This document shows positions 5,479-28,100 of a stretch of DNA of 46,482 nt, piece by piece. This DNA comes from Prevotella sp. GTDB taxonomy: Bacteria > Bacteroidota > Bacteroidia > Bacteroidales > Bacteroidaceae. The notes below the pieces were generated by a model. It was not told the DNA's origin, did no database searches, and saw only the letters and a program-made list of their open reading frames with translations. Made by a program: the position numbers and the translations under genes. Numbering within the stretch: the stretch's first letter is position 1; the number at the start of each line of letters is the position of its first letter. The stretch is taken from positions 1 to 46,482 of the forward strand of contig JAFZIL010000033.1 in assembly GCA_017554385.1 (NCBI GenBank). The letters are read 5' to 3'.

Positions 5479-5482
5479 TTTG

Positions 5483-8400
5483 TTAGTTGAAAATGTACTT
5501 GATTCCCACAGAAGCATACCAGCACTGTCCGATGGTGTGGTTAAGCACCCACGTATCGGTGCCGTTGTTGACAGCCTTCGGTGTAGAGAATACGGGATAG
5601 CCCTCAGCATCTGTGTGCTCATACTTCAGAATGCGACCCTCATTAAGACTGGGGTTCATGTACTTGCTCACGCCCCATGCAGAATTAAACAGGTTCAGCA
5701 CGTTCTTGATGTCACAGCTGAGCTGCAGGTTGTGCTTCGTCTTGCCAACGCTCACTCTGAAGTCGTGCTTGTAGGCGAAATCGAGACGGTGTACCCAAGG
5801 CGAATAAACACTGTAGGCCTCGGCATATTCACCCTGATGGTTGCTCAGGTAGTCGTCGTTGTGCACATACTCCATGAAGCGCGACTTGTCGTCCTCAGAT
5901 GCAAAGCGGAACTGGTTGCCAGCCACCTCGTTGTCGGTGGGGATATAAAGGGCATCGTAGCTGTAGCCATCGCCGTTCATGTCGTTCGACAGCATGTAGG
6001 AATACTTGTAGCCACCGCGCCATGTCTCGTAGATAAACGAGTAGTGGTTGCCGCTCTTGTCGTTCAGCGTAGCGCTGGCCACGAAGCGGTCGGGTGTCAG
6101 GTTGGTGGCGTTGTGCAGCATGATATTGTTCGGACCCTGATAGGTGGGGATGTAGGTGAAGGCAGACTCGGCAGCAGAACCGGGCAGCGAGGTCACTTCC
6201 TTGGCAACACTGTGGGTGTAGGCTGCCATCAGGTTCATCCACTCAAACGGCTGGGCATTCAGCTGGAGGCTGGCTTGCCAGTTGTAGCCGCGGCTGGTGT
6301 TTTCAAGCATAAAGGCCTTAGTGCGGTCAGCGCGGAAGTCGGCAGGATAGATGGGACGATTGTCGGCACCGTTCCAACGTGCAAAGCCCTCAGCGGGAAG
6401 CATGCTCCAGTCAGAGATACATACGTCGTTAACCATCTTGTTGAAGATACCCTCGAGGGTTACGGTGAAGGGGAACGACACAGGAATCTGGTAGTCGATA
6501 GCCAGTGATGTCTTCCATACCTGCGGCAGTTTGAAGTCGGGATCGACAGCAGAGATAGAAGAGGGGACGGTACCGTTCTCAGGCGAGATGTTCTGGGGAT
6601 AGCCCATGTTGAAAAGCTTCTGTTGCAGAGCGTCAATCGTAGCATGTCCGTTAGCGTCGGTAACGAGGCCTCCGGCAAACTGACTCATATCGATATAGTA
6701 ATTACCCTTTGAGTCGGTGGTGTACTTGCCGCTATATCCAGGAACAGACCATGTACCCTTTGCTGCATCGTAAACCTTCTTGTTGGCGTTGAGCTGTGCC
6801 TGATACTGCACCATACCGCTGTTGGTGGGCATGTTGGTGAAGAATACCAAGGGCAGACGGCCCATGAACAGACCGGTACCACCACGAACCTTCAGCGACT
6901 TGTCGCCGAAGACATCGTAGGTGAAGCCAACGCGTGGCGAAATCATGATGGCGTTGCTGGGCCAGGTGCCGGTGTCGATGTGGCGTCCGTCGTAGTCAAG
7001 ATCGTAGATAGCCTTGTTGGTCATCAGGTCACCGTTGTTAAAGAACAGACCATCGAGACGCAGACCATAGGTCAGCTTCAGGTTGTCGAGTACGTTCCAG
7101 TCGTCCTGCAGGTAGAAGCCGGCCTTGTTGTACTGCACACGGGCAGCAGGCTTCGACTCGCCACCATAGCCGTAGGTCAGACAGACGACCTCGGGTGTGG
7201 CTCCGTTCAGGAAGTCGTTTACGCTCAGGTAGCGGTAGTAGCCCGTACCGTTACGCATGTACTGGTTGTCGGCCATCTGGTGCTCGTAGCTCAGGCCAGC
7301 CATGATCTTGTGCTTTCCCATGTAGTAGGTCACGTCGTCCTTAACGTTCCAAACGGTGTTGTGAACGGCATTGTTCCATGTGAAGAGCTCATAGCCCAGT
7401 GCCATGTAGTTGGCGGTGTTGCCTGATCCGTCAAGGATGTCGATGAAGGGGAACTCGTCAGAGTCTGAGCCGCGCACGTCGTCCTTCTTGGAATAGGTGG
7501 CAAGGAATTGGTTCGACAGGTTCTCGGTCAGACGGCTGTTCAGGTCGATAGAGAATGAGTGAACAATATTCTCCATCGAGTACATCGAGTTGGCAAAGGC
7601 CATCGAATACATTGACAGACGGTTGTATGCCGAACGGGTACCACCATCCATCGACGAACCGTTGGTGTTGTTCCAGATATTGTTCTTCGTGTAGTTGTAG
7701 CGCAATGCCAGGTGGTGCTTGTCGGTGATGTTCCAGTCTACGCGGGCCAGGATCTTGTAGTTGTCCTCGTCAGCAGGGAAGTCGGTCCACGAACCGGTGT
7801 CGTAGCCGTACTTATCCTTTACGTGCTGTGAGACGGCAGCCATGTCGGCCAGCGTGGTGCGCGACAGGTAGTCGTTGGCGTTGTACGAGCCGTCCTCACT
7901 GGCGCGCCAGCGGTTGACGATGGTAGGAATCTTCACCATCTCAGCGTTGACGAAGAAGAAGAGTTTGTCCTTCAGGATCGGGCCACCGAGAGTGAAACCG
8001 TAGGTAGTCTTAGAATCCTTGGCACGTGCTCCGCTGATGGTCTCGCGATCTATGGCGTCGCCACGCAGGTTCTCGTTCTGGTGATACATGTAGGCACTAC
8101 CCTTGTAGGTGTTGGTACCCGACTTCGTGATGGCGTTCACACCACCACCGATGAAGTCAGTCTGGCGCACGTCGAACGGCGAGATGACCACCTGCAGCTC
8201 CTCGATAGCTTCGATCGAGATGGGGTTGCCACCGCCGGGGAGCTTGTCGCTCAGACCGAAGTCGTTGTTGAAGTTGGCACCGTCGACGGTGAAGTTAGCT
8301 GTACGGCCGTCACGACCACCGAAGGTCATGCCGTTTCCACCGTAGGGTGAGAGACGCGTGACGTCGGTGATGGCACGGCTCACCGTGGGCAGATTGGTAA

Positions 8401-8830
8401 TCTGGGCAGCTGTGATGTTGGTGGAAGCACCGGTCTTCTCGGCAGCGAACTTCGATGCCTTGCCGCTGATGATAACCTCTGTCAGCTCAGTGGCGTTCTC
8501 CGAGAGCCATACGTCCAGCTGATAGGTCTCACCCAGCTGAAGGATGATGTTCTTCAGCGTCTTGGGTTGGAAACCTACGTAACTGACGGTCACGGCATAC
8601 GGGCCACCCGTACGCATACCCTGAATAGAGAAGCGACCGTTGACGTTGGTCACTGCGGCATAGCGTGTACCCGAGGGCTCATGCACAGCCTGCACCGTAG
8701 CTCCGATAATAGCCTCTTCGCTACCCTCGAAAGTTACCTTACCTGCCAAACTTGATGTGGTAATTTGCGCTATAGCTGTCAGCGAAAGCGTCAACAGCAT
8801 AGCAATCAGAAAGATAAATCTTTTCTGCAT
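5483..8830 (-). CDS. Oar-like TonB-dependent outer-membrane receptor
   Basis: This 1115-aa outer-membrane protein has a signal peptide (MQKRFIFLIAMLLTLSLTAIAQ), an N-terminal carboxypeptidase-regulatory-like beta domain (about 28-110; GKVTFEGSEEAIIGATV ... VNGRFSIQG), a plug domain (about 125-235; VDGANFNN, EAIEELQVVISPFDVRQTDFIGG, GVNAITKSGTN) and a long beta-barrel ending in KYIFN with an aromatic residue near the C terminus. The plug wording and length fit the Oar (Myxococcus/OmpA-like) branch of TonB receptors rather than SusC. It would take up or bind a large ligand using TonB energy. The gene starts an operon with the BACON/OB lipoprotein 20 bases downstream. No SusD, glycoside hydrolase or regulator lies nearby, so I infer no substrate. 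Confidence 0.9.
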   Translation of the reverse strand: MQKRFIFLIAMLLTLSLTAIAQITTSSLAGKVTFEGSEEAIIGATVQAVHEPSGTRYAAVTNVNGRFSIQGMRTGGPYAVTVSYVGFQPKTLKNIILQLGETYQLDVWLSENATELTEVIISGKASKFAAEKTGASTNITAAQITNLPTVSRAITDVTRLSPYGGNGMTFGGRDGRTANFTVDGANFNNDFGLSDKLPGGGNPISIEAIEELQVVISPFDVRQTDFIGGGVNAITKSGTNTYKGSAYMYHQNENLRGDAIDRETISGARAKDSKTTYGFTLGGPILKDKLFFFVNAEMVKIPTIVNRWRASEDGSYNANDYLSRTTLADMAAVSQHVKDKYGYDTGSWTDFPADEDNYKILARVDWNITDKHHLALRYNYTKNNIWNNTNGSSMDGGTRSAYNRLSMYSMAFANSMYSMENIVHSFSIDLNSRLTENLSNQFLATYSKKDDVRGSDSDEFPFIDILDGSGNTANYMALGYELFTWNNAVHNTVWNVKDDVTYYMGKHKIMAGLSYEHQMADNQYMRNGTGYYRYLSVNDFLNGATPEVVCLTYGYGGESKPAARVQYNKAGFYLQDDWNVLDNLKLTYGLRLDGLFFNNGDLMTNKAIYDLDYDGRHIDTGTWPSNAIMISPRVGFTYDVFGDKSLKVRGGTGLFMGRLPLVFFTNMPTNSGMVQYQAQLNANKKVYDAAKGTWSVPGYSGKYTTDSKGNYYIDMSQFAGGLVTDANGHATIDALQQKLFNMGYPQNISPENGTVPSSISAVDPDFKLPQVWKTSLAIDYQIPVSFPFTVTLEGIFNKMVNDVCISDWSMLPAEGFARWNGADNRPIYPADFRADRTKAFMLENTSRGYNWQASLQLNAQPFEWMNLMAAYTHSVAKEVTSLPGSAAESAFTYIPTYQGPNNIMLHNATNLTPDRFVASATLNDKSGNHYSFIYETWRGGYKYSYMLSNDMNGDGYSYDALYIPTDNEVAGNQFRFASEDDKSRFMEYVHNDDYLSNHQGEYAEAYSVYSPWVHRLDFAYKHDFRVSVGKTKHNLQLSCDIKNVLNLFNSAWGVSKYMNPSLNEGRILKYEHTDAEGYPVFSTPKAVNNGTDTWVLNHTIGQCWYASVGIKYIFN

Positions 8831-13189: not shown

Positions 13190-16100
13190 ATGAACAAGAA
13201 AATACGTTTTTCATTGCTCACACTGTTGGTGATGCTATGCGGGACGGTGTTTGCTGACTATCAAAAGGTCACTGCCACTTCCGACATCACTGATGGTGAT
13301 TATCTGATTGTTTATGAAGCTGAGAATGTAGCTTTCAATGGTGCATTGGAGACTTTAGATGCTGCTGGTAATACAGTTGCTGTGACCATCAGTGATGGCA
13401 TTATTTCCTCAACAGATGCCATTGATGCCGCAGTGTTCACTTTCGACACAACAGACAAGAGCATTAAGAGTGCTTCTGGCTTCTATGTTGGAGCAGGAAA
13501 GTCTTATAGCAATGGCTTAAAGCAGTCGGCTACTCTTACTGATCAGTTTAAGCATACAAGTTTTGCCATTGTAGATGGTAATGTCATTATCACCAAAACC
13601 CTTTCTGATGGTGATATGATTTTGAATTACAATTCTAATAGTAGTGACAAGCGATTCCGCTATTACAAAGCAGGTAGCCAGAAGAAAATTCAGCTTTACA
13701 AGAAGATTACTTCTGGTGGTGGCAATGACAACACCGTTGCCAACTACGCTATTGACTTCAACACAAGGATTGCCACGAGCGCAAAGGACTTTGCTGTGGC
13801 TTCAAACTGGGGGCATGTTTCCGGTTACGATGCTGCGTATGACAGCAACATGTCGTACAGTTGGAGCGAGACTGCAGGCGTCGACAGGAGTGGCGCTCTG
13901 CTGGCCTATCGTCAGTTCAAGTATGACTGGGGACAGAGCAGTAGCGGCGTAGACGTCTACGACCTGCTTGTTACCCCAGAAGTGAAGGGCGCTGTGAGCG
14001 TAGCCGTGAAGCTGTATTCAGGCTCGAACTCCTATATTGAATTCTATAAGATGACCGATAATGGCGACGGCACTTTCACCCGTGGTGACAAAATTGAATA
14101 TACCTTAGGTGAGGAAGAGACGCTGAGCCAGTCGGCCTACTGCAATGCAACCATCAATGTCGAGGACTTTACCCGCATTGGTATTCGTGCTTCTTACATG
14201 TATCTTGACAACTTCGTTGCCGAGCAGGCCAATATCGTTCCGGAGAAGGCTATCACCATTGCTTCGGCCGATCCTACCGCTACCACTGGAACTATCTACT
14301 GGGATCAGCAGGCCAACGGCAAGGTGCTGGTGAAGTACACTGTTACTGTGAAGAACACCGGCGATGTCGATTTGACTCAGGGAACCGAGGGCTACAGCGT
14401 GTCTATCTTCAACCGCGATGACAATGTGGTTTATGCCACGACAGCCGTTCCTCAAAATCTGGCTGTCGGTGAAACATCCGACCCGTTTGACGTTCAGGCA
14501 GAGGTTGAGACCAGCGTCTGGCCTAACAGCTATTCCTATCACTCCATGGACCTGAAGGAGAATCTGAAGGGCAGCGTCTTACAGCGTGCCCAGTCTCACT
14601 ATAATGCCTATCAGTCGAAGTTCGTGTTCCGTGCTGCTGAGAGCACCGCTACCAGCAGCATCACTACTTCTGAGGCTTGGGGCACCATCACTGAGAGCAC
14701 CACGAAGAGTTTCGAAATCTTCAACAACGGACTGGCTCCGCTCACCATCACCGCTATCACCCTGCCTGAGGGCTTCACCAGTGCCGATGCACCCGTGATT
14801 CCTGCTGAGGGTCTCGTAGTCAACAGTAAGGAGAGCGTGACGCTGAGCATCACGCAGGATGCCGCCACTGCTGGCACCTTCGCTGGTACTTTGACCATCA
14901 GCTATCAGAGCTATGGTAGCGAGGAGGCAACCAACTATACCTTGGACTTCTCGGCCACTATCATCGATGCTAATACTTGGGCGGTTGACTTCAACAATAC
15001 GAAGTCGGGTATCGTTTATCCCGCTGGTTCTATCGCCGAGAATGGAATTAGCAGCGATTATGATTACAATAGTGGTACATATAACTACTGGATCACAGGT
15101 CGTACTCAGAGTAGTTATGCTACGGAGAACAACAAGTTCATCACTCCGAAGCTGCACGCCAATGCAGGCGATGCCCTGGCCTACGACGTGAAGGGTGCCT
15201 ATGGCTCTTCTTACTATGCCAAAGTATATGTATCTACCGATCGTCAGAATTGGACACAGGTAGCCTATTATACCCAGAACGAGACTGAAGGTGCCGAGGC
15301 AATCGGCTACGCCAACTGGTACACCAAGCAGGTGACCTTTACTGAAGCTGGTGACTATTACGTTGCCTTTGCACTATACGGAACCTTTAAGATTGACAAT
15401 CTTGTAGGTCTGGAGAAGGTTGACGTGGCCCACGACCTCTACATCAAGAGTGTCAACTGGCCCGATGCTTCTGTAAAGAGCGGCACGTCGCTCTCGAAGC
15501 CCAGCGTGGATATTATCCCGTTGACCGACGAGACTGCCGACGCCTACACCGTGAAGTACGTCTGCGGCGAGACCGTACTGGCCGAGGGAACACCCGTTGC
15601 CCTGACCGCCAGCGCCAACAGCTCGAAGACATTCTCGTTCGCTTGGACACCCAATGTGGAGAACACCACCACATATCCTGGAACAAAGGTTGTGTTTGAG
15701 TTCACCGACGACACGAAGTTCGAGACCGAGGGCTTCGACCTCACCGTGGCCAACGAGGCTATCTTCCACTTCCTGAGCGCACTGCCTTCGAGCAAATGGT
15801 ATGAACCCACCGACGTATCGGCTCCTATCGCATTTGGTAAGAGCAATACGGCTGACGTGAAGACCTACTACATCTACAACTGGGGTTCTGCTCCTCTGAC
15901 GGTCAACAGCATCTCGTTGCCCGAGGGATTCACTGCTGATGTCGAGTTCCCGATTACCGTTCCTGCTTTCGACGAGAACGACCTCGCCGCTGCTTCTAAA
16001 GCTCTTGCCATCACCTTCTCGGCTACCGAGGCCGGAGAGTATAGTGGTGACATGGTCATCACCTACAGCGGCGAAAAGACCTTCACGCTCGCCATCAGCG

Positions 16101-19100
16101 GTGTGAAGCTTGACGCTTCGAAGTTCTATGCTAACTTCGACGATGGTGGCTGGCCTGCAGGCTCGGTCTATCAGAGCAATATCAGCTCCAGCAATGGTGG
16201 CACCAATAGTGTTCCCAACTACTATATCACCTCTTCGAGCACAACCGATAACCTCTTCATTACTCCGAAGCTGATGGCTGCCGACGGCGACAAGCTGCTG
16301 TTCGACGCCAAGCTCTACAGCTCTTACTGGAGCGAGGGTACTGTGAAGGTATATGCCGCCGCTACCCGCGAGGAGGTGCTGAACGCTGAGGAGGGTACTA
16401 CTCGCACGCTGCTCTTCACCGCCAGCGGTGCCGAGGAATCAGAGAACCTGCTCACCACCGACTATCAGACCTTCGAGGTGTCCGCTGTCGCTGGTGACTA
16501 CTTCTATGGCTTCGAAATCAGTAATCGTCCTTATGTTGACGAGATCTATGGACTGAGCGTGGCCGCCGTGGCCCACGACCTGATGCTCGTGTCGAGCAAC
16601 ATTCCTGCCGAGGCTATGCAGAACATTCCTGTCAACGCTACGCTGAACGTGCTGAACGTTGGCCTGCAGGATGAGACTGAATACGACATCGTGCTCCACA
16701 TCGGCGACGATGCAACCCCCATCGCTGGCACCGAGACCATTCCCATGAAGCACAAGCTGACCGAGAGCACCGCCATAAGCGTGCCCATGCAGAGCCCGAA
16801 GGCAGGCACCCTCCCCGTCTACATCGAGCTGAAGGCCGGCGACCTCGTGCTGACTACTGATGCCGTCGACGTGACCTTCGCTGAGGAGGTGGCTGTGGCC
16901 GACGCTATCCAGGTGGGAACCAAGACCAACACGGGCCGTGACTATGGCTTCGTTGACTGGTACAACAACGACGGTAGTACTACCCTTTACACCGACATCC
17001 TCTATCCCGCTGCCAAGATTTCGGCTGCTGGCATCAAGGCCGGTGACAAGATTGTATCTATCACATACCAAGGCACGAACAGTGCCAAGACCTTAAAAGC
17101 ACAGGTCACCTCGTGGGTGGGCACATCTACTGGCGACATCACCTACGGCTCGCCCGTCAAGGAGAACATGGCCGAGGTAGTGGTCTACGACGGCAGCTCT
17201 TATGACTTCGAGGCCAACTTCAAGTCAGTGATCACCCTGCCCCAGCCAATCGTATGGGACGGCACCTCTGACATCCGCGTCTACACCGAGGCTGTAGGTC
17301 AGGGCTCAGGTAACTGGGTGAGCGTACAATATCCCTATGACAATGAGCTGACCATGTCGTACAATGGTACCAACAAGTATGGCACCGTGGCCTACTTTAC
17401 ACTCTCTGCCGAGCCTGCTACCTTCGCCGGTACGGTGAAGAACGATGCCGACGAGGCTGTCGAAGGCGCAACAATTACGCTGATAAGCAACGACGGCGAC
17501 AACGTACAGTACAGCGGTACGACCGACGCACAGGGCGCATTCAGCTTCAACGTCATACAGACCGCACGCACCTACATTGCCACGGTCACAGCCGAGGGCT
17601 TTGAGGATGCTACCGAGGAGAACATCAGCTTCGCCGAGGGCAACCAGACGAAGGACTTCGTTTTGGTGAAGTGGGTTGAACCGAATCCTCTTAATGATTA
17701 CTTCGTAAACACTGACTTTGCTTCAACAGAAGGTTGGACGGCTGTCACTTCTGATAGTTTCAAGGAGATTGGTAATGGTAAGATTGGTGAGTTTAAGGTC
17801 TACAACAACATACCTGCTACCGTAGATGACACTCACCTTGCTACTGAATATTGCTTCGGTTTCGAGGCTCGTTGGTCTTCTAATTTCTCTTCTTACACTC
17901 AGGAATCTAAGGTTGCCCTGCCCGCTGGTACTTATACACTGACCTTCGACGTGGAGAACGTCAATGGTTCTACGACGAAGGCTTCTTATGAGAATCGCTT
18001 TAAGGTTACTGTAGGAGATAATGTGTTCACCGATCAAGCAACTGAATGGATGAACGGAAAGAGCAGTTGGACGAAACATACCATTGTCTTCAATGTTGAT
18101 GAGGATGCCAAGGCTACTTTGAGCTTCGGTTATGGTACTGGTTCGAACAATATTGGTTCTGCCAATACGCCAATCGTCTATGTGAGCCACTTGGATATGA
18201 CATTCAAGTCGCTGGCTGCTGGTGCCATTGAGGTGCTGCAGGCTGAGATTGATAAGGCTGAGGCTCTGAAGACTGCAACCCGCACCGAGGGACTTGACGA
18301 CTTTAACGCAGCTATCCAAGCAGCAAAGGCACTGCTTACTTCTTCTGATGTAGCTGCTATCAACGCAGGCGTTGAGGCACTGAAGGCTGCCGAGGAGGCA
18401 TTCCTCACGGCTAACCTGCCTGTGGCCGAGGGTACCTACTACGTCTACAACCCGCTGACGGAGAAGTTCCTGAGCCGCGGTAATGCATGGGGTACCAGTG
18501 CTGTGGTCGATGACTATGGTGTGGCCATAAAGGTCAATGTAACGCTGGCCGATGGTAAGTACACGTTGACAGGCTTCGACAATAACACTACTTATGGCGA
18601 TGACACCTGGATGTTTGCTGATGCTGGTGGCGACCGTGCCCGCTCTTATATTATTAATAAGGTAGAAGGCGGTGTGACCCTGACCAATACTGGCAACAAC
18701 ATGCTCGTCTATGTCTATACGAACGAAGGCGGTGACAAGTATCGAGTGGCTGGCAATGCCATCAAGGGCGACAACTACACCGACGATGCTCAGACCGTTT
18801 GGCAGTTCATTACTCCTGCTGAGCGTGACCGGATGGTGGCAAGCCGCGAGGCTGCAGCCAAGACAGCAGCCTACACTGCCGCCGGCCTCTCAGAGGACGA
18901 TGAGTTAGAACTTGGCGAGGCTACTGAGGTGAGCTTCACCACTGGTCACGCATGGACGCAGACGGTTGTCCGCACACAGAACAACCAACCTGCTACCAAT
19001 GCCAATGGTACGGAGATGTGGCAGGCTACGGGTAACTATACCCAGACCATCAGCGACCTGCCTGCAGGTCTCTACAAGGTGACCATCCAGGCCTTCTACC

Positions 19101-20113
19101 GCAATGGTGGTCCTGATGAGGACCAGGTACGCGTGGCTACTGGCTACAACACCGTATTGGCTTACCTTGAGGCCAACGGCAATAAGGTACAGGTGAAGAG
19201 CTGGACCAGCGACAAGGGCGAAGGCAATGATCCTAACTCAATGGATCAGGCCAAGGCTAAGTTCGAGGCCGGCAAATACCTCAGCGAGGTCTATACTTGC
19301 GTCGGTGCCGATGGCAAGCTCAACCTGATGGTGAACAACCCTGCCTTTATCGGTAACGGCTGGTTCATCGTTGGCAACGTGAAGTATGCCAAGGTCGAGG
19401 AAAACAATGTCATTGCAGGTGATGTCTCTGGCGACGGTGAGGTGACTACCAACGACGCTGTGGCTGTTATCCCGTTCGTTCTTGAGCAGGCTGAACCTAC
19501 GCCTGAGCAGTTCAAGGCTGCCGACGTGAACAAGTCGAACACCATCACCATTTCCGATGCAGTGGGTATCGTGAATATCGCACTGAATGTGCCTGCCGAT
19601 TCTGAACCCGTTGATGGAGCACGTGGTATGGTCGACGATACCAACGACTACGTTGTTCTCAACAGCAGCGAGGTGGGTCTGGTGAACACCACTACCTTCG
19701 TAGGCTTCCAGATGGATATCACGCTCAGCGAGGGTGCACAGTTCAACGGTGTACAGCTTACGAGTCGTACCATGGGCCATCAGGTGGCTTGGAACCGTAT
19801 CGCTGACCGCACCTACCGTGTTGTCGTCTTCTCGGCAGCCAACGAGGCCATCACCTCTACTGAGGGTGCCCTGTTGCAGCTGAACATCAGTGGCAACCAG
19901 CAGGTATCGCTTGGCAAGATTGAGTTCACCGATGCCAGTGCTCGTGCATACGCTCTCGGCGTGGCCGATCCTACGGGTATCCGTGGCATCACTGCCGACC
20001 AGCTCGATGCTCAGATCTACACCGTGGGTGGTGTCAGGAGCGACAAGGTGCGTAAGGGCATGAACGTCATCCGCCAGAACAATGGCAAGGTGACCAAGCG
20101 CTTCGTGAAGTAA
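13190..20113 (+). CDS. Giant modular surface protein 1, dockerin- and cohesin-like C terminus
   Basis: A 2307-aa exported protein. Reading in order: signal peptide (1-22); a beta domain ending RFRYYKAGSQKKIQLYKK (about 23-170); three cleaved-adhesin-like jelly rolls (about 184-350, 597-744, 978-1124; the last two share FITPKL); Ig-like spacer domains between them (two starting VAHDL, at about 745 and 1126); another beta domain (1236-1409); a carboxypeptidase-regulatory-like domain (1410-1494); a carbohydrate-binding-like domain (1497-1674); a helical segment (1676-1744); a beta-rich block (1745-2075); a dockerin-like pair (GDVSGDGEVTTND and ADVNKSNTITISD, about 2077-2137); a cohesin-like domain (2152-2258); and a basic C-terminal tail ending KRFVK. 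No protease or glycosidase motif is seen, so the role is probably adhesion or scaffolding. The tail resembles, loosely, a type IX secretion C-terminal signal. The second dockerin repeat has Ser where the third calcium ligand is usually Asp. Confidence 0.82.
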   Translation: MNKKIRFSLLTLLVMLCGTVFADYQKVTATSDITDGDYLIVYEAENVAFNGALETLDAAGNTVAVTISDGIISSTDAIDAAVFTFDTTDKSIKSASGFYVGAGKSYSNGLKQSATLTDQFKHTSFAIVDGNVIITKTLSDGDMILNYNSNSSDKRFRYYKAGSQKKIQLYKKITSGGGNDNTVANYAIDFNTRIATSAKDFAVASNWGHVSGYDAAYDSNMSYSWSETAGVDRSGALLAYRQFKYDWGQSSSGVDVYDLLVTPEVKGAVSVAVKLYSGSNSYIEFYKMTDNGDGTFTRGDKIEYTLGEEETLSQSAYCNATINVEDFTRIGIRASYMYLDNFVAEQANIVPEKAITIASADPTATTGTIYWDQQANGKVLVKYTVTVKNTGDVDLTQGTEGYSVSIFNRDDNVVYATTAVPQNLAVGETSDPFDVQAEVETSVWPNSYSYHSMDLKENLKGSVLQRAQSHYNAYQSKFVFRAAESTATSSITTSEAWGTITESTTKSFEIFNNGLAPLTITAITLPEGFTSADAPVIPAEGLVVNSKESVTLSITQDAATAGTFAGTLTISYQSYGSEEATNYTLDFSATIIDANTWAVDFNNTKSGIVYPAGSIAENGISSDYDYNSGTYNYWITGRTQSSYATENNKFITPKLHANAGDALAYDVKGAYGSSYYAKVYVSTDRQNWTQVAYYTQNETEGAEAIGYANWYTKQVTFTEAGDYYVAFALYGTFKIDNLVGLEKVDVAHDLYIKSVNWPDASVKSGTSLSKPSVDIIPLTDETADAYTVKYVCGETVLAEGTPVALTASANSSKTFSFAWTPNVENTTTYPGTKVVFEFTDDTKFETEGFDLTVANEAIFHFLSALPSSKWYEPTDVSAPIAFGKSNTADVKTYYIYNWGSAPLTVNSISLPEGFTADVEFPITVPAFDENDLAAASKALAITFSATEAGEYSGDMVITYSGEKTFTLAISGVKLDASKFYANFDDGGWPAGSVYQSNISSSNGGTNSVPNYYITSSSTTDNLFITPKLMAADGDKLLFDAKLYSSYWSEGTVKVYAAATREEVLNAEEGTTRTLLFTASGAEESENLLTTDYQTFEVSAVAGDYFYGFEISNRPYVDEIYGLSVAAVAHDLMLVSSNIPAEAMQNIPVNATLNVLNVGLQDETEYDIVLHIGDDATPIAGTETIPMKHKLTESTAISVPMQSPKAGTLPVYIELKAGDLVLTTDAVDVTFAEEVAVADAIQVGTKTNTGRDYGFVDWYNNDGSTTLYTDILYPAAKISAAGIKAGDKIVSITYQGTNSAKTLKAQVTSWVGTSTGDITYGSPVKENMAEVVVYDGSSYDFEANFKSVITLPQPIVWDGTSDIRVYTEAVGQGSGNWVSVQYPYDNELTMSYNGTNKYGTVAYFTLSAEPATFAGTVKNDADEAVEGATITLISNDGDNVQYSGTTDAQGAFSFNVIQTARTYIATVTAEGFEDATEENISFAEGNQTKDFVLVKWVEPNPLNDYFVNTDFASTEGWTAVTSDSFKEIGNGKIGEFKVYNNIPATVDDTHLATEYCFGFEARWSSNFSSYTQESKVALPAGTYTLTFDVENVNGSTTKASYENRFKVTVGDNVFTDQATEWMNGKSSWTKHTIVFNVDEDAKATLSFGYGTGSNNIGSANTPIVYVSHLDMTFKSLAAGAIEVLQAEIDKAEALKTATRTEGLDDFNAAIQAAKALLTSSDVAAINAGVEALKAAEEAFLTANLPVAEGTYYVYNPLTEKFLSRGNAWGTSAVVDDYGVAIKVNVTLADGKYTLTGFDNNTTYGDDTWMFADAGGDRARSYIINKVEGGVTLTNTGNNMLVYVYTNEGGDKYRVAGNAIKGDNYTDDAQTVWQFITPAERDRMVASREAAAKTAAYTAAGLSEDDELELGEATEVSFTTGHAWTQTVVRTQNNQPATNANGTEMWQATGNYTQTISDLPAGLYKVTIQAFYRNGGPDEDQVRVATGYNTVLAYLEANGNKVQVKSWTSDKGEGNDPNSMDQAKAKFEAGKYLSEVYTCVGADGKLNLMVNNPAFIGNGWFIVGNVKYAKVEENNVIAGDVSGDGEVTTNDAVAVIPFVLEQAEPTPEQFKAADVNKSNTITISDAVGIVNIALNVPADSEPVDGARGMVDDTNDYVVLNSSEVGLVNTTTFVGFQMDITLSEGAQFNGVQLTSRTMGHQVAWNRIADRTYRVVVFSAANEAITSTEGALLQLNISGNQQVSLGKIEFTDASARAYALGVADPTGIRGITADQLDAQIYTVGGVRSDKVRKGMNVIRQNNGKVTKRFVK

Positions 20114-20122
20114 ATACCATGA

Positions 20123-20162
20123 TGTGCTGTGGCGCGTCTGAAACATGACGCGCCACGGCGCA
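20123..20162 (+). terminator. 16-bp hairpin between giant genes 1 and 2
   Basis: Arms 20123-20138 and 20147-20162 pair over 16 bp (two G-U pairs, no mismatch) around an 8-base loop. The core is GTGGCGCGTC/GACGCGCCAC. No T-run follows; the 3' flank is CACCAAA. It could be a partial terminator, an RNase barrier that sets different levels for the two genes, or a processing site. Confidence 0.75.
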
Positions 20163-20199
20163 CCAAACATTGAAAAGTAATCAATTAACCAATAACAAT

Positions 20200-23100
20200 A
20201 TGAACAGAAAGAATGTCTTTAAATGGTTGTTCGTTTATGTCCTGCTCTGCGTGGCGGGCATTACGACTGCCGTAGCACAGTCGCTCTCCATCGCCGACTT
20301 CTCTATACGCTACGGAGAGACAAAGACCTTGACCATCACGATGGACAAGGGCAATCTGGCTGCCGTCTATGGCGTGCAGACCGACCTGACGCTGCCTGCA
20401 GGCCTGCAGCTCGTTGACAACAACGTTGCGGCTGTAGCTAATATCATACAGTATCCGGGTGAGCCCACGTTGAACTTCAATCCCGACAACGGGCGCATCA
20501 CTATCTTCTCGCTGTCAGGCAAGCCGTTTGGCGAGGGCGTAACTGGCATTGTCACTTTTACCGTGAAGGCTGGTGCCGACTTTGCCGGTGGTGAAGTAAA
20601 GCTTGCCAACTCGCTGTTTACTACCAGTCCTGAAGGTGCAGAAGTAAGCGGTACCGACGTGACGGCTACGGCCACACTCGACACCAGCTACCTCGTAGAC
20701 TTCAACAAGTCTATTGCCACGGGCAGTCATGACTTCAAGGTGGCCTCGAACTGGGGGCACATCGTGGGTTCTGGCAACTACGACGGTTACGGCCCCTACT
20801 ACATGACTTATAGCTACAAGGCTGAAGAAGGCTTTGATGGCACGGGCGCTCTCTATGCAGCCCGCCAGTATGCCGGCGACAACTGGGGCGGCAGTGTGGT
20901 CAACGACCTGCTCGTCACTCCTTTGGTTTCTGGCGCTATTACCATGAAGGTGAAGGTCAGTGGCGCTTCCTCTTCCAATCCCTCGTTTGTTGAGATTTAT
21001 AAGATCAATGACGACGGCACTCAGGGCGACCTGATCCAGAAGTTTACTGCCGACGAAGGCTATACCGATATTGAAGGTCAGGAAGACTGGAAGCTCATTT
21101 CGCTGACGCTCACTGAGGAGCAGCGCATCGGTATCCGTGCACAGTATGTCATCATGGATGACTTCACGGCCGAGAATGTTACCATCGTTCCTGAGAAGTC
21201 GCTTACCGTGACAGGTGTGATGAATCAGGACAAGCAGAATGGTACCTCCGGCACTAACCCCGTCTTCGAGCAGCAGCCCGACGGCACGTTGAAGGTGGTG
21301 CTGAAAGTGGCACTCGAGAATACAGGCGATGTCGACTTCACCGCAGGTATGGAAGGCTTCTCGCTGACTCCTGCCAGTTCATCCCTTTCGTCAGGTTCTA
21401 AGACCTACTATGAGGATGCTACCGTGGCTCTCACCCGCGACCTTGCTGCAGGTGCTGTCGACACAGTTGATGTGGAGTTCTATACAACCATGCCTACCTC
21501 TACTTGGCTGTATTGGTTCGTTCGTGAGAATATCGGTGGTACTACTTCATCGCAGTATCGCTATGCCAGCACTGCTGCCTATGAGCCTAAGTTCGTGTTC
21601 CGCGTAGCTGAGGCTACCTCAACGTCGAGCCTCACTGCTGCTCAGGCCTACGGCACTATCTCCGAGGAGACGACCAAGCAGTTCGAGATTGTGAACCTCG
21701 GTGTGGCTCCGCTGACCATTAAGAGCATCACTTTGCCTGAGGGCTTCACCTCGGCCAATGCTCCCACTGCCGAGTTCACGCTGCAGAAGAATGCTTCGCA
21801 GGCTATCGATATCACGCTGCCCGTCACTACTACGGGTGCCTACAGTGGTAACCTGACCATTGTCTATCTCGACAAGACTGGTGCTGAGCAGACCTACACG
21901 CTCGCCTTCTCGGGTAACGTACTCGCAGCAGGCACATGGTTTGCCGACTTTGGCACGTCGAGAGACCAGTATCCCGAAGGCAGTGTTGCTGAAAACGGCA
22001 TCTCGACAGACTACACCTATTCGAATGGTGCCTACGACTACTACATCAAGTCGACCTCCGTCAACAGCAGCTATGCTACGGAGAACAATAAGTTCATCAC
22101 CCCGAAGCTTCATGCTAATGCTGGCGACCAGATGACGTTCGAGGCCAAACAGGGCACCTACACTTCACAGAATGCCTACTTCGTGAAAGTCTACAAGTCG
22201 ACCGACCGTAAGACCTGGGGTGAGCCCATTGCTGAATACTACTATAACGACCTGACCGACAAGTTCGAGAAGAAGAGCATCAGCTTTGCTGAGGAAGGCG
22301 ACTACTATGTGGCCTTCGCTATCTTCGGTGTGTATGTTGACAATATCATCGGCTTGACGAAGGTTGACGTAGCCCACGACCTCTATGTGAAGAAGGTCAG
22401 CTGGCCCGATGCATCGGTGAAGAGTGGCACGTCGCTCTCGAAGCCCAGCGTGGAGTTCATCCCGCTGACCACTGAGGCTGCCGACGCCTACACCGTGAAG
22501 TACGTGTGTGGTGAGACCGTTCTGGCCGAGGGTACACCTGTTGAGCTGACTGCTTCTGCCAAAAGCAGCAATACCATCGCCTTCTCGTGGACGCCCACCG
22601 TTGAGCAGACCACGGTTTATGAAGGAACCAAGGTGGTGTTCGCATTTGTCGACGGCACAACATTTGAGACCGAGACCTTCGACCTTACCGTGACCAACGA
22701 GCCGAAGTTCCACTTCATCAGCTCGCTGCCTTCGAGCAAGTGGTACGAGCCTACCGACGTGAGCACGCCTATCGCCTTCCCCAAGACCAACACGGCCGAT
22801 AAGCAGACCTTCTACGTCTACAACTGGGGTTCGGCTCCGCTGACGGTGAAGAGCATCGCCATGCCGAATGGCTTTACCGCTACGCCTGCTGAGCAGTTTG
22901 TTGTGGCTTCCTTCGACGAGAACGACATGAGCGTGGCTGCACAGGCTGTCGAGATTACCTTCTCCGCTGCCGAGGCTGGCGAATACAGTGGCGACATGGT
23001 GATTACCTACGTCAACGGTGCCGGCGAGGATGCCACCTTCACCCTGGGTGTGAGTGGCACGAAGCTCGACCCATCGAAGTTCTATGCCAACTTCGACGGT

Positions 23101-25347
23101 GAAGGCGACGGATGGCCTGCCGGTTCTGTCTATCAGAAGAATATCAGCACCAGCAACGGTGGCACCTACAGTGCTCCCAACTACAGCATCTATTCTACAA
23201 GCACGACCGACAACCTCTTCATCACGCCGAAGCTCACGGCTGCTACTGGCGACAAGCTCGTGTTCGATGCCAAGCTCTATAGCACCTACTGGAGCGAGGG
23301 TAAGGTGGTGGTCTATGCCGCTGCTACCCGCGAAGAGGTGATGAACGCCGAGGAAGGCACCACACGCACACAGATGTTCAGCGTGAGCGGACAGGACGAG
23401 ACAGCTCCGATGACCACTGACTGGCAGACCTTCGAGGTGCCCGCTCTTGCTGGCGACAACTACTACGCCTTTGAGATCAGCAACCGTGCATACGTCGACG
23501 AGATCTACGGTCTGACCGTGGCCGACGTCGCCCACGACTGGATGATTGCTTCGAGCAACATTCCCGTTGAGGCTATGCAGAACGTGGCTGCTACCGCTAC
23601 CGTGAACCTGCTGAATGTGGGTCTGGCTGCTGAAGAGGCCGATGCTTATACCGTTACGCTGTATATCGACGGTGAGGCTGCCGCAACTGGTGAGGCCGTC
23701 GCACTGCCTATGACGCATAAGCTTAGCGATGCAGGCACCGCTATCTCTATGGAGTTCCGTTCACCGAAGGTTGGCACCTTCCCAGTCTACATCGAGGTGA
23801 AAGCTGGTGACTACAGCGTCGCTACCGAACCCGTCGATGTGACGTTCACCGAGGAAGTTGCACTGGCCGATGCTATTGAGGTGGGTGATGGTACCATTGC
23901 GAGCTATAATTACGCTCCTATTGACTTCTATAACTTCGAGCAGGCAAGAACTTCTGATATTGTTTATACTGCTGCACAGCTCAGTGAGTTCGGTATCAAG
24001 TCGGGCGACAAGATGACTAAGCTCGCATTCAAGGGTACGCTGACTACTGCAAAGACACTTGCTAACAGCTCATTGAAGGCATGGGTGGCTTTGAAGACTG
24101 GTGACATTGAGTGGAACGCTCCCGACAAGACCACTATGACAGAGGTCACGGTGTTCAATGCAGGTGAAATGGTATTTACTTCTGGCGACAACTGGATCAA
24201 CATTAACCTGCCTGAGGGCATTGTCTACGACGGCACTTCCGACCTGCGCATATATCTGGAAGGCGGCGGTGGCGGCGAATGGGTTTCCATGAACTTCACT
24301 TACGACACTGACTACCAGAACATGAAGTGGAGCAACAACTCAAACATGAAGTACAACCCGACGCTCTTTGTGACGCTGGCTGCTGAGGCTGCTACCTTCT
24401 CCGGTACGGTGAAGGATGCTGACGGCAATGCCATCGAGAACGCTACGGTGACGCTCGTCAGTGCTGACAACGACAATGTGCAGTACACGGGTACGACCGA
24501 TGCCCAGGGTGCTTATAGCTTCAACGTGATCCAGACGGGTCGCACCTACAACGCTACTGCTTCTGCCGAGGGCTTCGAGGATGCTACCGAGGAGAACATC
24601 AGCTTCGCTGAGGGCAACCAGACGAAGGACTTCGTACTGACAGCGATGGTAACTGTAGTGAAGGGTGATATCAATAACGACGGCAAGATTACAACTGCCG
24701 ACGCTGTGGCTATCGTTAATATCGCATTGGGCGAGGCTGCTCCTACCGCTGACCAGCTTGCTGTGGCCGATATGAACGGTGACGGCCTGATTACTACTGC
24801 CGATGCTGTGGCCGTGGTACAGCTGGCACTGGCCGAGGAGGCTCCTGCAGGAGCACCCCGTGTAGACCTGAGCGCACAGAACCGCCTGTCGGTCAATGCC
24901 GGCAAGGTGATGCTGAGTAATGCCGACGAGTTTGTGGCCTTCCAGATGGATGTCACGCTGGCCGACGACGCACAGCTCCAGGGTGTGAATCTCTCTAACC
25001 GTATGACGACTCACGAGGCTACCTATGCTCGCGTTGATGCTAATACTTGGCGTATTATCGTCATCTCTATGCAGAACGATGCCATCATGAACAACAGTGG
25101 TTCACTGATGCAGCTGAACATCAGCGGTAATCAGGAGATTTCGCTTTCGAACGTTGAGTTCGTCGATGCTGCTGCCCGTGCCTGTGCCGTAGGTCTCGGC
25201 GAGACCACTGGCATTGTCGGTGTGGATGCTGACCAGAGCGATGCTTCCTACTACAACGTGGGTGGCGTGCGCAACGACAACGTGCGTAAGGGCATGAACA
25301 TCGTGCGCTCTGCCGACGGTAAGGTCAAGAAAGTGTTCGTGAAGTAA
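20200..25347 (+). CDS. Giant modular surface protein 2, cohesin-like at both ends plus dockerin-like pair
   Basis: A 1715-aa exported paralogue of protein 1. Signal peptide (1-27, ending TAVAQ); cohesin-like domain (about 28-160; IRYGETKTLTITMDKG ... GVTGIVTFTVKAG); three cleaved-adhesin-like jelly rolls (164-331, 580-722, 961-1107) with Ig-like spacers; a domain starting DAIEVGDG (1224-1396); a carboxypeptidase-regulatory-like domain (1398-1481); a dockerin-like pair with complete ligand sets (GDINNDGKITTAD, ADMNGDGLITTAD; about 1488-1546); a second cohesin-like domain (1561-1667); and a tail ending KKVFVK. It matches protein 1 module by module but lacks the ~580-aa carbohydrate-binding block. 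I start at the ATG at 20200, which opens a clean signal peptide; a TTG ten codons upstream is less likely. No catalytic motif is seen. Role as scaffold or adhesin is inferred. Confidence 0.82.
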   Translation: MNRKNVFKWLFVYVLLCVAGITTAVAQSLSIADFSIRYGETKTLTITMDKGNLAAVYGVQTDLTLPAGLQLVDNNVAAVANIIQYPGEPTLNFNPDNGRITIFSLSGKPFGEGVTGIVTFTVKAGADFAGGEVKLANSLFTTSPEGAEVSGTDVTATATLDTSYLVDFNKSIATGSHDFKVASNWGHIVGSGNYDGYGPYYMTYSYKAEEGFDGTGALYAARQYAGDNWGGSVVNDLLVTPLVSGAITMKVKVSGASSSNPSFVEIYKINDDGTQGDLIQKFTADEGYTDIEGQEDWKLISLTLTEEQRIGIRAQYVIMDDFTAENVTIVPEKSLTVTGVMNQDKQNGTSGTNPVFEQQPDGTLKVVLKVALENTGDVDFTAGMEGFSLTPASSSLSSGSKTYYEDATVALTRDLAAGAVDTVDVEFYTTMPTSTWLYWFVRENIGGTTSSQYRYASTAAYEPKFVFRVAEATSTSSLTAAQAYGTISEETTKQFEIVNLGVAPLTIKSITLPEGFTSANAPTAEFTLQKNASQAIDITLPVTTTGAYSGNLTIVYLDKTGAEQTYTLAFSGNVLAAGTWFADFGTSRDQYPEGSVAENGISTDYTYSNGAYDYYIKSTSVNSSYATENNKFITPKLHANAGDQMTFEAKQGTYTSQNAYFVKVYKSTDRKTWGEPIAEYYYNDLTDKFEKKSISFAEEGDYYVAFAIFGVYVDNIIGLTKVDVAHDLYVKKVSWPDASVKSGTSLSKPSVEFIPLTTEAADAYTVKYVCGETVLAEGTPVELTASAKSSNTIAFSWTPTVEQTTVYEGTKVVFAFVDGTTFETETFDLTVTNEPKFHFISSLPSSKWYEPTDVSTPIAFPKTNTADKQTFYVYNWGSAPLTVKSIAMPNGFTATPAEQFVVASFDENDMSVAAQAVEITFSAAEAGEYSGDMVITYVNGAGEDATFTLGVSGTKLDPSKFYANFDGEGDGWPAGSVYQKNISTSNGGTYSAPNYSIYSTSTTDNLFITPKLTAATGDKLVFDAKLYSTYWSEGKVVVYAAATREEVMNAEEGTTRTQMFSVSGQDETAPMTTDWQTFEVPALAGDNYYAFEISNRAYVDEIYGLTVADVAHDWMIASSNIPVEAMQNVAATATVNLLNVGLAAEEADAYTVTLYIDGEAAATGEAVALPMTHKLSDAGTAISMEFRSPKVGTFPVYIEVKAGDYSVATEPVDVTFTEEVALADAIEVGDGTIASYNYAPIDFYNFEQARTSDIVYTAAQLSEFGIKSGDKMTKLAFKGTLTTAKTLANSSLKAWVALKTGDIEWNAPDKTTMTEVTVFNAGEMVFTSGDNWININLPEGIVYDGTSDLRIYLEGGGGGEWVSMNFTYDTDYQNMKWSNNSNMKYNPTLFVTLAAEAATFSGTVKDADGNAIENATVTLVSADNDNVQYTGTTDAQGAYSFNVIQTGRTYNATASAEGFEDATEENISFAEGNQTKDFVLTAMVTVVKGDINNDGKITTADAVAIVNIALGEAAPTADQLAVADMNGDGLITTADAVAVVQLALAEEAPAGAPRVDLSAQNRLSVNAGKVMLSNADEFVAFQMDVTLADDAQLQGVNLSNRMTTHEATYARVDANTWRIIVISMQNDAIMNNSGSLMQLNISGNQEISLSNVEFVDAAARACAVGLGETTGIVGVDADQSDASYYNVGGVRNDNVRKGMNIVRSADGKVKKVFVK

Positions 25348-25374
25348 TAGTAATCAATTAAAATCATTAATGAT

Positions 25375-28011
25375 ATGAACAAAAAGAATATTTTCAAATG
25401 GTTATTCGTGTACGTCCTGCTCTTGGTAGCAGGCGTCACGAGTGCCGTGGCGCAGTCGCTCACCATTGCTGACTTCCAGATCAAGGCCGGAGAGACAAAG
25501 ACGGTTACCATCAAGTTGGACAAGGGCAGTCTTGCTGATGTCTATAGCGTGCAGGCCGACATAGCTTTCTCTGATGGGCTGTCGCTTGATGGTGATCCTG
25601 AACTCATCAGTGGTGTGCTTTCTGGAGGTACGTTGGCTTTTAACACATTTACCAGTGGTGTCACTCGTATCTCTGCCCTGTCAATGAGTGGTAAGACCTT
25701 CACGGCCGAAGAGATTATCAACCTTCCCGTGAAGGCTGCTGAGAACTTTGAGCGTGGTACCATCACACTCTCTAACATCGAGTTCGCTATCACCAACACC
25801 GGACAGACCTTCAAGCCTGAGAACAGTACTACTGCTGTGACGAAGGAGGAAGAGCAGCAAGGTGAAGAGGTAGAGGCTCAGTGGGTTGCTAAGGATAAGG
25901 GATATAGCAATGGAGACGAAGTTACTGAATCTGTCATTGACAATAATGTCTCTGTTACTTTCAATAAAGGCACAGGCAGCAACGCCCCAAAATACTACAC
26001 AACTGGTGAAGCCGTTCGTGTCTATGGAGGTGGAAACTTTACCATTGCAAGTACCACAGCAACGATTGTGAAAATTGAACTGACGTTCGGAACTGGTGAT
26101 GGAAATAATGAAATCACTACAGATGTTGCGTCTTACGAGAATGGTACATGGACTGGAGAGGCTCAGAGTGTTAAGTTTACTGTAGGTGGCACATCTGGCA
26201 ATCGCCGTATCGCTGGCATTACCGTAACTTATAAGGGTGGGAGCGACGTTCCTCCCACGCCTATCACCGTGGCTGCTCCTACGTTCAGCGTTCCCGAGGG
26301 AACCTATACTGAGGCACAGACCGTGACGTTGGCTTGCGAGACCGAGGGCGCTGCCATCTACTACACCCTTGACGGTACTGATCCTACTGCAGAGAGCACG
26401 CTCTATGAGGCTCCTATCACTATCTCGACCACTACGACGGTGAAGGCCATCGCCATCAAGGACGACGTGCTGAGTGCTGTGGCTACTGCCACCTACACCT
26501 TCCCTGTAGTTGCTGAGAACATCGCTGCCTTCAAGGCTCTTGATGTGAATGCCGAGGCTGTGCTGACGCTGACCGATGCCATTGTTTCCCATGCCAATGG
26601 CGACAATGTCTTCGTCGAGGATGCAACTGGTGGTATCTGCTTCTATAAGTCTGGAGCAGGATTGGTCAAAGGCAATAAGCTCAGTGGTACTATCTATGGT
26701 AAGTACGCTGAGTATAAGAGCCTGCCCGAGCTGGCTGTTGTCACTGGCAAGACCTCGCTCGACAACGTCGTTATTGCCAATGAGGTGGCTACCGTTACCC
26801 CTGCCGTGCTCTCTATCACAGAGGCCAGCGCTGCTGCCTATGCTGCACGCATGGTGAAGATTGAGGATGTCACCGTGACTGTCGACGGAAACAAGACCTA
26901 CATCACTGATGCTGCTGGCGCACAGTTGCAGATCTATATCACTTATGGTTCAACAGCAGAGCTTCCTGCTGCCGACACGAAGCTGAAGAGCATCACCGGT
27001 CTGTTGATTCCTTTCAACACCTCGTTCGAGATTGTTCCTCTGACACAGGACGACATCGTGGTGGACAATGGTGAGGAAGAGACTTTGAAGGAGGTGACCA
27101 TCGACCATGAGCGTACGGTTGGCTTAGGCTATGGTGTTACTACGGCTACTGTCGACCTGACTGAGGCTGCTGAGTTCCTCGGTGTCGATGCTATCACCAC
27201 TGATATGCTGTACGTTGAGAATCCCGATGGTACGCTTATCAGCAACTATGGCGCTTATGACGGTTGGTTCGATGGTGATGGTGTTGCTACCACATGGGGC
27301 AGTACGACCAAGGTCTGTGTGAAGTTCTTCGAGGCTATCCCTGATGGTGTGTTCAGTATCTGCGACATGAACGGTGCCGACGTGGTCGGTGAGACTTATA
27401 CCGTTCGCTGGCAGCTTGTCAGCGGCGAGAAGGCCGTTCGCTACACCATCAACGTGACGTTCGTCGCGGCTGAGCAGCCCGAACCTGAGGTGATCCAGAC
27501 AATCAACGTGCCTGTGACCATGAAGCCCGCAACGGCTTATGAGGCTATCAGCGCTACCTTCGATGCAGCTGCTGTGGCTGAGGCTCTGGGTCTTGAGAGC
27601 CTGGCCACGGCCAAGGCCTACATCGTGAACGTGACCGACGGTTCGTTCGTGCTGAATGGTACCGACGGCTGGCGCGATGCTAATGGTGATGCTGCTGCAT
27701 GGGGCTCTGGAGCCGGTATGGTCTGCGTGAAGATCAATAATCCTGCTTCTGGTGTCATCGATTACCTCGGTGCCATCGACGAAACCTATGCCGAAGGTTC
27801 TACCTACACAGCCAAGTGGGGCTTCGTGAACGAAGCTACCAACAAGGCAGTTGTACTTAACATCAACATCACCTTCACCTCTGCTACTGGCATCGATGCT
27901 ATCAACGCTGCTCTCAGCGCTGGCAAGGTCTACAACCTTAGCGGTCAGCAGGTGCAGAAGGCCCAGAAGGGCATCTACATCATTGGTGGCAAGAAGATGG
28001 TGGTGAAGTAA
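25375..28011 (+). CDS. Modular surface protein 3, N-terminal cohesin-like, two DUF4859-like domains
   Basis: An 878-aa exported protein whose signal peptide and first domain closely match protein 2 (FKWLFVYVLL, AVAQSL, IADF). Order: signal (1-27); cohesin-like domain (28-155); a domain with APKYYTTGEAVRVYGGG (about 167-286), common in Bacteroidota surface proteins; a chitobiase/hexosaminidase C-terminal-like Ig domain (299-376; YYTLDGTDPT is diagnostic); an OB-fold-like domain (377-562); two domains resembling DUF4859 (about 571-699 and 706-832, each with a WGS motif); and a tail with VYNLSGQQV and GIYIIGGKKMVVK. There is no dockerin-like pair. It follows protein 2 by 27 bases with no hairpin between, so they are probably cotranscribed. 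Ligand unknown. Confidence 0.82.
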   Translation: MNKKNIFKWLFVYVLLLVAGVTSAVAQSLTIADFQIKAGETKTVTIKLDKGSLADVYSVQADIAFSDGLSLDGDPELISGVLSGGTLAFNTFTSGVTRISALSMSGKTFTAEEIINLPVKAAENFERGTITLSNIEFAITNTGQTFKPENSTTAVTKEEEQQGEEVEAQWVAKDKGYSNGDEVTESVIDNNVSVTFNKGTGSNAPKYYTTGEAVRVYGGGNFTIASTTATIVKIELTFGTGDGNNEITTDVASYENGTWTGEAQSVKFTVGGTSGNRRIAGITVTYKGGSDVPPTPITVAAPTFSVPEGTYTEAQTVTLACETEGAAIYYTLDGTDPTAESTLYEAPITISTTTTVKAIAIKDDVLSAVATATYTFPVVAENIAAFKALDVNAEAVLTLTDAIVSHANGDNVFVEDATGGICFYKSGAGLVKGNKLSGTIYGKYAEYKSLPELAVVTGKTSLDNVVIANEVATVTPAVLSITEASAAAYAARMVKIEDVTVTVDGNKTYITDAAGAQLQIYITYGSTAELPAADTKLKSITGLLIPFNTSFEIVPLTQDDIVVDNGEEETLKEVTIDHERTVGLGYGVTTATVDLTEAAEFLGVDAITTDMLYVENPDGTLISNYGAYDGWFDGDGVATTWGSTTKVCVKFFEAIPDGVFSICDMNGADVVGETYTVRWQLVSGEKAVRYTINVTFVAAEQPEPEVIQTINVPVTMKPATAYEAISATFDAAAVAEALGLESLATAKAYIVNVTDGSFVLNGTDGWRDANGDAAAWGSGAGMVCVKINNPASGVIDYLGAIDETYAEGSTYTAKWGFVNEATNKAVVLNINITFTSATGIDAINAALSAGKVYNLSGQQVQKAQKGIYIIGGKKMVVK

Positions 28012-28012
28012 T

Positions 28013-28100
28013 TGAGAATTGTAAATTGAATATCGAGAATCAGGCGGCACCCACCGCTATGGTGCGGTGGGTGTCACCAAAAAACAGTAACAAAGTAAAT
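28013..28100 (+). terminator. Filler words and a 12-bp hairpin after giant gene 3
   Basis: Filler (gagaattgtaaattgaatatcgagaat, 28013-28040) is followed by a hairpin, arms 28046-28057 and 28064-28075 (GGCACCCACCGC with GCGGTGGGTGTC, one G-U pair), a 6-base loop, then ACCAAAAAACAG. As at 20123-20162 the 3' flank is CACCAAA and lacks a T-run. Confidence 0.65.

Follow-up and report, generated by a model that had tools for sequence, protein, structure and literature searches.

Cohesins and dockerins are textbook folds. The closest described systems built on them are the clostridial and ruminococcal cellulosomes (types I–III) and the non-cellulosomal cohesins of Clostridium perfringens (NagJ GH84C and the GH33 sialidase), the latter being modules of glycoside hydrolases that are encoded apart. 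In the accessible part of one report, Prevotella genomes are described as carrying dockerins, and the functional role of the dockerins in Bacteroidetes polysaccharide utilization loci is given as 'not defined yet' (PMC7480376); in that of another, cohesins, tandem ones included, are present in some rumen Bacteroidetes bins, and a table lists one Bacteroidetes bin as having 11 dockerins and 0 cohesins (PMC6071333). Paired dockerin and cohesin genes are not described in those parts of either source. Here, a contig of 46,482 nucleotides from Prevotella sp. (assembly GCA_017554385.1, contig JAFZIL010000033.1), referred to in its whole length as the window, was found to contain three adjacent genes, encoding the large proteins P1, P2 and P3, in which dockerins and cohesins follow one another in a fixed order. 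We consider it moderately probable that these genes constitute a dedicated cohesin–dockerin cassette, whose products would link up head-to-tail at the cell surface, following the order of their genes.

The analysis of open reading frames in the window bore out all three genes as real, with intergenic gaps of 86 bases between P1 and P2 and 27 bases between P2 and P3. Their features are as follows:

13190..20113, + strand: P1, with a signal peptide, immunoglobulin (Ig)-like and CarboxypepD_reg domains, and a C-terminal dockerin, compact cohesin and tail (from open reading frames, Pfam and a local hidden Markov model (HMM) search)
19409..19585, + strand: P1 dockerin, residues 2074-2132, PF00404 at 32.5 bits
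19637..19993, + strand: P1 compact C-terminal cohesin, residues 2150-2268
19964-20110, + strand: P1 C-terminal tail, VRKGMN type
20200..25347, + strand: P2, ATG start, with an N-terminal cohesin and a C-terminal dockerin, compact cohesin and tail
20269..20682, + strand: P2 N-terminal cohesin, residues 24-161, from the local HMM search, a member of profile A2
24655..24831, + strand: P2 dockerin, residues 1486-1544
24871..25227, + strand: P2 compact C-terminal cohesin, residues 1558-1676
25198..25344, + strand: P2 C-terminal tail (...VRKGMN...KVFVK)
25375..28011, + strand: P3, with an N-terminal cohesin only, then CHB_HEX_C_1/Fn3_assoc, DUF4859 and a tail
25444..25857, + strand: P3 N-terminal cohesin, residues 24-161
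27877..28008, + strand: P3 C-terminal tail (GIYIIGGKKMVVK)

In contrast to the clostridial and ruminococcal cellulosomes, the window proteins carry no enzyme, no multi-cohesin scaffoldin serving dispersed dockerins was found in the genome to which the window belongs, the dockerin and cohesin genes lie side by side, a compact cohesin follows the dockerin, and the genome encodes a type IX secretion system. Likewise, unlike the C. perfringens cohesins, the modules reside on non-enzymatic giants encoded next to each other, and both of them are present on the middle protein. The locus was not classified as a cellulosome, since neither this genome nor that of Prevotella communis shows a scaffoldin collecting dockerin enzymes encoded apart, and since P1–P3 have neither glycoside hydrolases nor a cellulose-binding module; elsewhere, the dockerin protein at contig C86 is a subtilase.

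The layout drawn by an earlier first-pass annotation, made from the letters alone, was confirmed, with dockerins followed by a cohesin in P1 and P2 and N-terminal cohesins in P2 and P3. Both dockerins exceed the curated PF00404 cut-off and possess two tandem loop-helix repeats. The beta domains of P1–P3, which that annotation had called cohesin-like, adopt the cohesin jelly-roll fold and are cohesins by this measure. Additionally, a seven-sequence profile of N-terminal cohesins (A2, including that of P2) retrieves solved cohesins from the PDB, and it matches the P1 compact cohesin at 19679-19930 (E 1.6e-12); no N-terminal cohesin was found in P1. Single N-terminal domain sequences returned nothing relevant from the PDB, and profile A4, built on the compact cohesin, found no solved cohesin there, the fold of this domain having been assigned from a predicted structure model rather than from A4. 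The cohesins of P1–P3 are divergent and are missed by PF00963, which gave no match in the three proteins even at E up to 1, NCBIfam likewise yielding no cohesin. Two siblings in the same genome do pass PF00963 (25.0 bits at C28 and 25.1 at C86, cut-off 24.1), and genome-wide this model finds 2 places where A2 finds at least 14. As the first reading had noticed, the three proteins lack enzyme motifs, no enzyme family exceeding its cut-off in either Pfam or NCBIfam. Pfam placed Dockerin_1 over cut-off, together with CarboxypepD_reg and one Ig-like family, in both P1 and P2, and CHB_HEX_C_1, Fn3_assoc and DUF4859 in P3, carbohydrate-binding lines appearing only below cut-off (CBM77 in P1, E 0.0042; CBM_5_12_2 in P2, E 0.059). 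The NCBIfam lines, choice-of-anchor and others, were weak and all below cut-off, with none in P3.

The three genes had been presented as an unusual trio of giants, a frame that proved too small, since they are one of several cassettes in their own genome (98 contigs, 81% complete). In this genome PF00404 has 14 matches, nine of them over cut-off; its surroundings show a tenth, at C87 (19.2 bits), to be genuine, and the other four are sub-cut-off fragments that cover 18-29 positions of the model and lie in open frames 816-1146 residues long. All 10 convincing dockerins adjoin or lie inside a cohesin-bearing gene. Nine dockerin genes are directly followed by a cohesin gene (P1 and P2 in the window, two at C28, and those at C40, C77, C86, C87 and C96), and at C49 dockerin and cohesin share one frame. 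The upstream proteins vary, comprising BspA-type leucine-rich repeat (LRR) proteins (first C28 pair, C40, C87), an LRR protein (C77), a subtilase (C86) and small proteins (second C28 pair, C96). The downstream frames exceed 1700 residues in five of nine cases, and those scanned contain Ig-like, CARDB or InlB-type repeat domains. In eight of the nine the cohesin comes right after the protein start; the C86 frame has instead three internal cohesins and is the sole multi-cohesin protein seen in this genome. Among the cohesin matches listed, which fall in 11 frames, a dockerin lies within 2 kb upstream in nine, downstream in none and inside the frame in three, and no frame is devoid of one.

This arrangement recurs in relatives. 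Across a genus sample of 60 genomes, own included, A2 matches at least 28 and PF00404 matches 38. Neighbours were counted with five dockerin-rich genomes (G001, G036, G040, G047, G049) set aside, and 22 relatives then provided, among the matches listed, 70 cohesin frames, with a dockerin frame upstream in 31, downstream in 6 and in the same frame in 30. When the window's genome is added, the polarity among the matches listed amounts to 40 cohesin frames with a dockerin upstream versus 6 with one downstream. The dockerin–cohesin gene pair was also present at all three named loci retrieved with a two-sequence alignment (A3), which come from P. communis E15-14, a Prevotella of the yak rumen and an uncultured Prevotella; these three names support the first-pass annotation's view of a Prevotella-like cell. 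The complete P. communis chromosome has three dockerin and seven cohesin matches (E up to 0.001), which form three cassettes, each with a dockerin plus compact cohesin frame and then a frame bearing one or two cohesins, so that all three dockerins adjoin or sit in a cohesin-bearing gene. The local HMM search covered 33 loci, taken without L039-L043, which are own-genome stretches around weaker matches, and adjacent pairs were counted at 31 of these, L031 and L032 being set aside as duplicates of L044. Of 40 adjacent pairs, 34 consist of a dockerin gene followed by a gene with an N-terminal cohesin, a proportion that is not an unbiased rate because the relatives' loci were picked for cohesin matches. 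Of the six misfits, L033 and the first pair at each of L048 and L049 have a cohesin that is not N-terminal, the second pair of L059 is cohesin–cohesin, and L044 and L063 are places where one cassette ends and the next begins. Longer chains keep the same polarity; with D for dockerin, C for cohesin and c for compact cohesin, they read D, CD, C at L050 and L063 and Dc, CCCCD, C at L060.

Twenty loci from four dockerin-rich Prevotella genomes were also scanned; cohesins were found at eight and a dockerin–cohesin pair at six (L068, L077, L080, L085, L086, L087), and at L073 and L084 both modules share one frame. Ten dockerin proteins of one such genome, G040 (L068-L079), included one C10 peptidase, three M6 peptidases, two BspA-type LRR proteins and one GH88 plus pectate lyase protein, the dockerin being C-terminal in each of the five enzymes. 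Four dockerin proteins of this genome (L068 4684-4962, L069 2591-3967, L073 473-3811, L076 2592-5999) run past the dockerin into a common short tail, RAYL..HGFI.

In an order-level sample with one genome per genus, own included, 6 of 98 genomes have A2 matches at E up to 1e-6. Loci were chosen by their matches, one from each of the five other genera's genomes plus a second from G104, and at five of these six (G104:C85, G062, G077, G130, G114) a dockerin plus compact cohesin gene directly precedes a cohesin gene. G104 belongs to a different family of Bacteroidales, and at its C85 locus (L088 and L089, positions 1-27854) six consecutive genes, the leading one truncated by the start of the contig, each encode a C-terminal series of dockerin, compact cohesin and PF18962. 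Two of the products are C25 (gingipain-family) peptidases, one is a subtilase and one is Omp28-like (below cut-off); two further proteins complete the set. The protein encoded next has at least 10 cohesins, and PF00963 lists none of them at E up to 0.001; this locus is a protease-carrying, cellulosome-like cluster in Bacteroidales. At L090 (G062:C25:205001-224000), scaffoldin-like neighbouring proteins with eight and five cohesins come after a dockerin–compact cohesin gene, in a genome with 38 dockerin matches.

The middle protein is a mosaic. Residues 1-146 of P2 match P3 at 48%, residues 163-1484 match P1 at 54%, and the end of P2 matches that of P1 at 47%; P1 has no match to P3. In the two-gene form of P. 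communis, the first protein agrees with P2 at 60%, beginning at residue 164, and with P1 at 52%, and the second matches the heads of P2 and P3 and parts of P3. P2 therefore appears to have joined a P3-like head to a P1-like body, and its modules are precisely the pair required of a link in mid-chain.

The tails bear on export. Two kinds of tail had been taken to mark two kinds of anchoring, a distinction that was not upheld, as a single profile built from both (A11) has 109 matches in the genome, the best three being the tails of P3, P2 and P1, themselves members of the alignment. So many matches suggest that the tail marks an extensive class of proteins, either secreted or on the surface. The search for the type IX machine covered SprA, and SprA_N was found at C21 with 694.9 bits. 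The locus thus resembles type IX cargo in that SprA is encoded and in that the six G104 dockerin–compact cohesin proteins end in PF18962, and differs from it in having tails of about 45 residues that are matched neither by PF18962 nor by NCBIfam sorting-domain models. The P1–P3 tail is most likely a type IX sorting signal, by analogy, mainly because the G104 proteins of the same domain order end in PF18962. A simple letter pattern of our own recognized the tail in 19 of 26 frames that carry cohesins only, in 23 of 25 frames that continue beyond their dockerin, and in 0 of 21 that end with the dockerin, the last figure being partly a matter of construction.

Two RNA hairpins lie in the cassette, one between its genes and one after the last:

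20120..20165, + strand: stem-loop between P1 and P2, 16 consecutive pairs, no T-run, fold z -7.3, 0 of 200 shuffles as good
28043..28078, + strand: hairpin 3' of P3, fold z -5.0

The former is suggested to be a partial terminator or stabiliser, and its strength implies that expression of P1 may be separate from that of P2 and P3; the latter is perhaps the end of the transcript. The Rfam scan of the window returned two tRNAs and nothing else, and the promoter-like (17 versus 11.3 expected, sd 2.9) and terminator-like sites (13 versus 10.9, sd 3.1) were not used. On the - strand (3678-8830), a BACON-domain protein (3678-5462) lies beside an outer-membrane barrel with a carboxypeptidase-regulatory-like domain (5483-8830).

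According to the cassette reading, in which we infer binding with its stoichiometry, surface location, the export route and the role of the compact cohesin, P1–P3 would all be exported, carrying a C-terminal type IX-like sorting tail. At the cell surface, the P1 dockerin would plug into the N-terminal cohesin of P2 and the P2 dockerin into that of P3, resulting in a chain of long Ig-like/adhesin-like proteins in gene order, with P1 first, P2 as the middle and P3 as the last link. The compact cohesin after each dockerin probably stabilises or masks it. P2 would have arisen from a P3-like head and a P1-like body, turning a two-protein pair, as in P. communis, into a three-protein chain, this direction of change being the presumed one. 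The head-to-tail linkage, already raised by the first-pass annotation, is thus suggested by gene order and domain order, here and in relatives, and drew no support from structure prediction. Sequence distances were compared in 24 pairs with all parts present, where those of the dockerin correlated with those of the downstream cohesin at r 0.56 and of the same-chain compact cohesin at 0.49, as against 0.16-0.27 for the controls (dockerin versus tails and signal peptide), whose segments are short and noisy; the compact cohesin and its own tail gave 0.41. With one pair per genome, r was 0.37 (n=22; 0 of 2000 permutations as high), and in the own genome alone 0.86 (n=9), shared ancestry not being removed in these tests.

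Several observations weigh against this reading. When the P2 dockerin and the P3 cohesin were co-folded (single chain, five sequences), the predicted template modelling score (pTM) was 0.34 and no sign of docking appeared, the tool having no interface measure. The highest correlation in the 24 pairs was between downstream and compact cohesins (0.59) rather than between dockerin and cohesin, and such correlation can arise from co-inheritance. At the protein level, the C86, C77 and C87 dockerins score below cut-off (20.9, 20.0 and 14.6 bits), and several of the nine own-genome cassettes resemble duplicates, hence they are not nine independent observations. Among the relatives' matches listed, 15 of the 70 cohesin frames have no dockerin in frame or within 2 kb; other genomes have many dockerins (41 matches in G040), several of which, among those examined, lie away from any cohesin gene; and L091 (G104:C41) encodes a one-cohesin protein without a dockerin gene before it. 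Neither PF18962 nor the NCBIfam sorting-domain models match P1–P3, and the tail profile gave 4.3% and no alignment against PF18962-bearing tails, for which reason the tails were not assigned to that family. Finally, the P1–P2 hairpin argues against a plain single operon.

The strongest rival is a latch in cis, in which each dockerin would engage the compact cohesin that comes next on its own chain, closing the protein or preventing aggregation close to the tail, and the N-terminal cohesins would bind something else. A cohesin-like or compact domain does follow the dockerin on the same chain in 25 of 43 gene pairs, and likewise at single loci from five other genera, and both the correlation of 0.49 and the failure of the co-fold to put the dockerin on the P3 cohesin are in line with it. 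However, in the other 18 of the 43 pairs the upstream dockerin protein lacks such a domain and still precedes a cohesin gene (e.g., L037, L044 second pair, L059, L061, L065, L067), the correlation of the dockerin with the next gene's cohesin is no weaker than that with the compact cohesin beside it, and gene polarity is left unexplained, so that this possibility is regarded as rather unlikely. A cellulosome-like scaffold, in which the P2 and P3 cohesins collect dockerin enzymes encoded elsewhere, would find its models in dockerin-rich relatives such as G040, with its four peptidases and GH88/pectate lyase among ten scanned proteins, and in G104, where six dockerin genes lie beside the protein with at least 10 cohesins. 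Nevertheless, it is improbable in the present genome and in P. communis, where all 10 and all three dockerins, respectively, are accounted for by cohesin-bearing genes, so that a scaffold would find no spare dockerin enzymes, with the reservation that only 81% of the own genome is present. It is equally doubtful that both folds are decayed or repurposed modules, serving as structural, calcium-binding spacers in large adhesins without mutual recognition. The divergence of the P1–P3 cohesins from PF00963 and the further Ig-like domains of P1 and P2 are what such spacers might look like, but spacers need not keep the dockerin-upstream polarity of 40 versus 6 frames, nor the one-to-one count seen in the complete P. 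communis genome.

The cassette reading can be extended to a bolder and unlikely form, a gene-order-coded self-assembly of Bacteroidales in which each dockerin gene would be placed just before that of the matching cohesin, and head-swapping fusions such as P2 would lengthen the chains. In this extension, tail-less dockerin-terminal proteins might be exported through the type IX channel riding on their tailed cohesin partner, the compact cohesin masking the dockerin until export. The idea of riding on a partner comes from the tail counts above, zero in dockerin-terminal versus 19 in cohesin-only frames.

In the open-licence literature, as far as the accessible parts of the sources extend, no report was found of dedicated Bacteroidales dockerin–cohesin gene pairs, of dockerins trailed by a compact cohesin or of chains of three genes so ordered. 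The bin with 11 dockerins and no cohesin may reflect the failure of Pfam to detect such cohesins. A neighbouring cohesin, mostly missed by the standard model, can now be assigned to every convincing dockerin of the own genome and of P. communis (the PF00963 comparison coming from the own genome). The cassettes therefore offer a testable partner for the rumen Bacteroidetes dockerins whose role is left undefined in the accessible part of PMC7480376. P. communis E15-14, with a finished isolate genome, three cassettes and no other dockerin or cohesin at the thresholds used, provides a clean test. Were the binding to be demonstrated, these genes would represent a means of surface assembly distinct from cellulosomes, one in which the pairing of partners is built in, and would also furnish new plug-and-socket modules.
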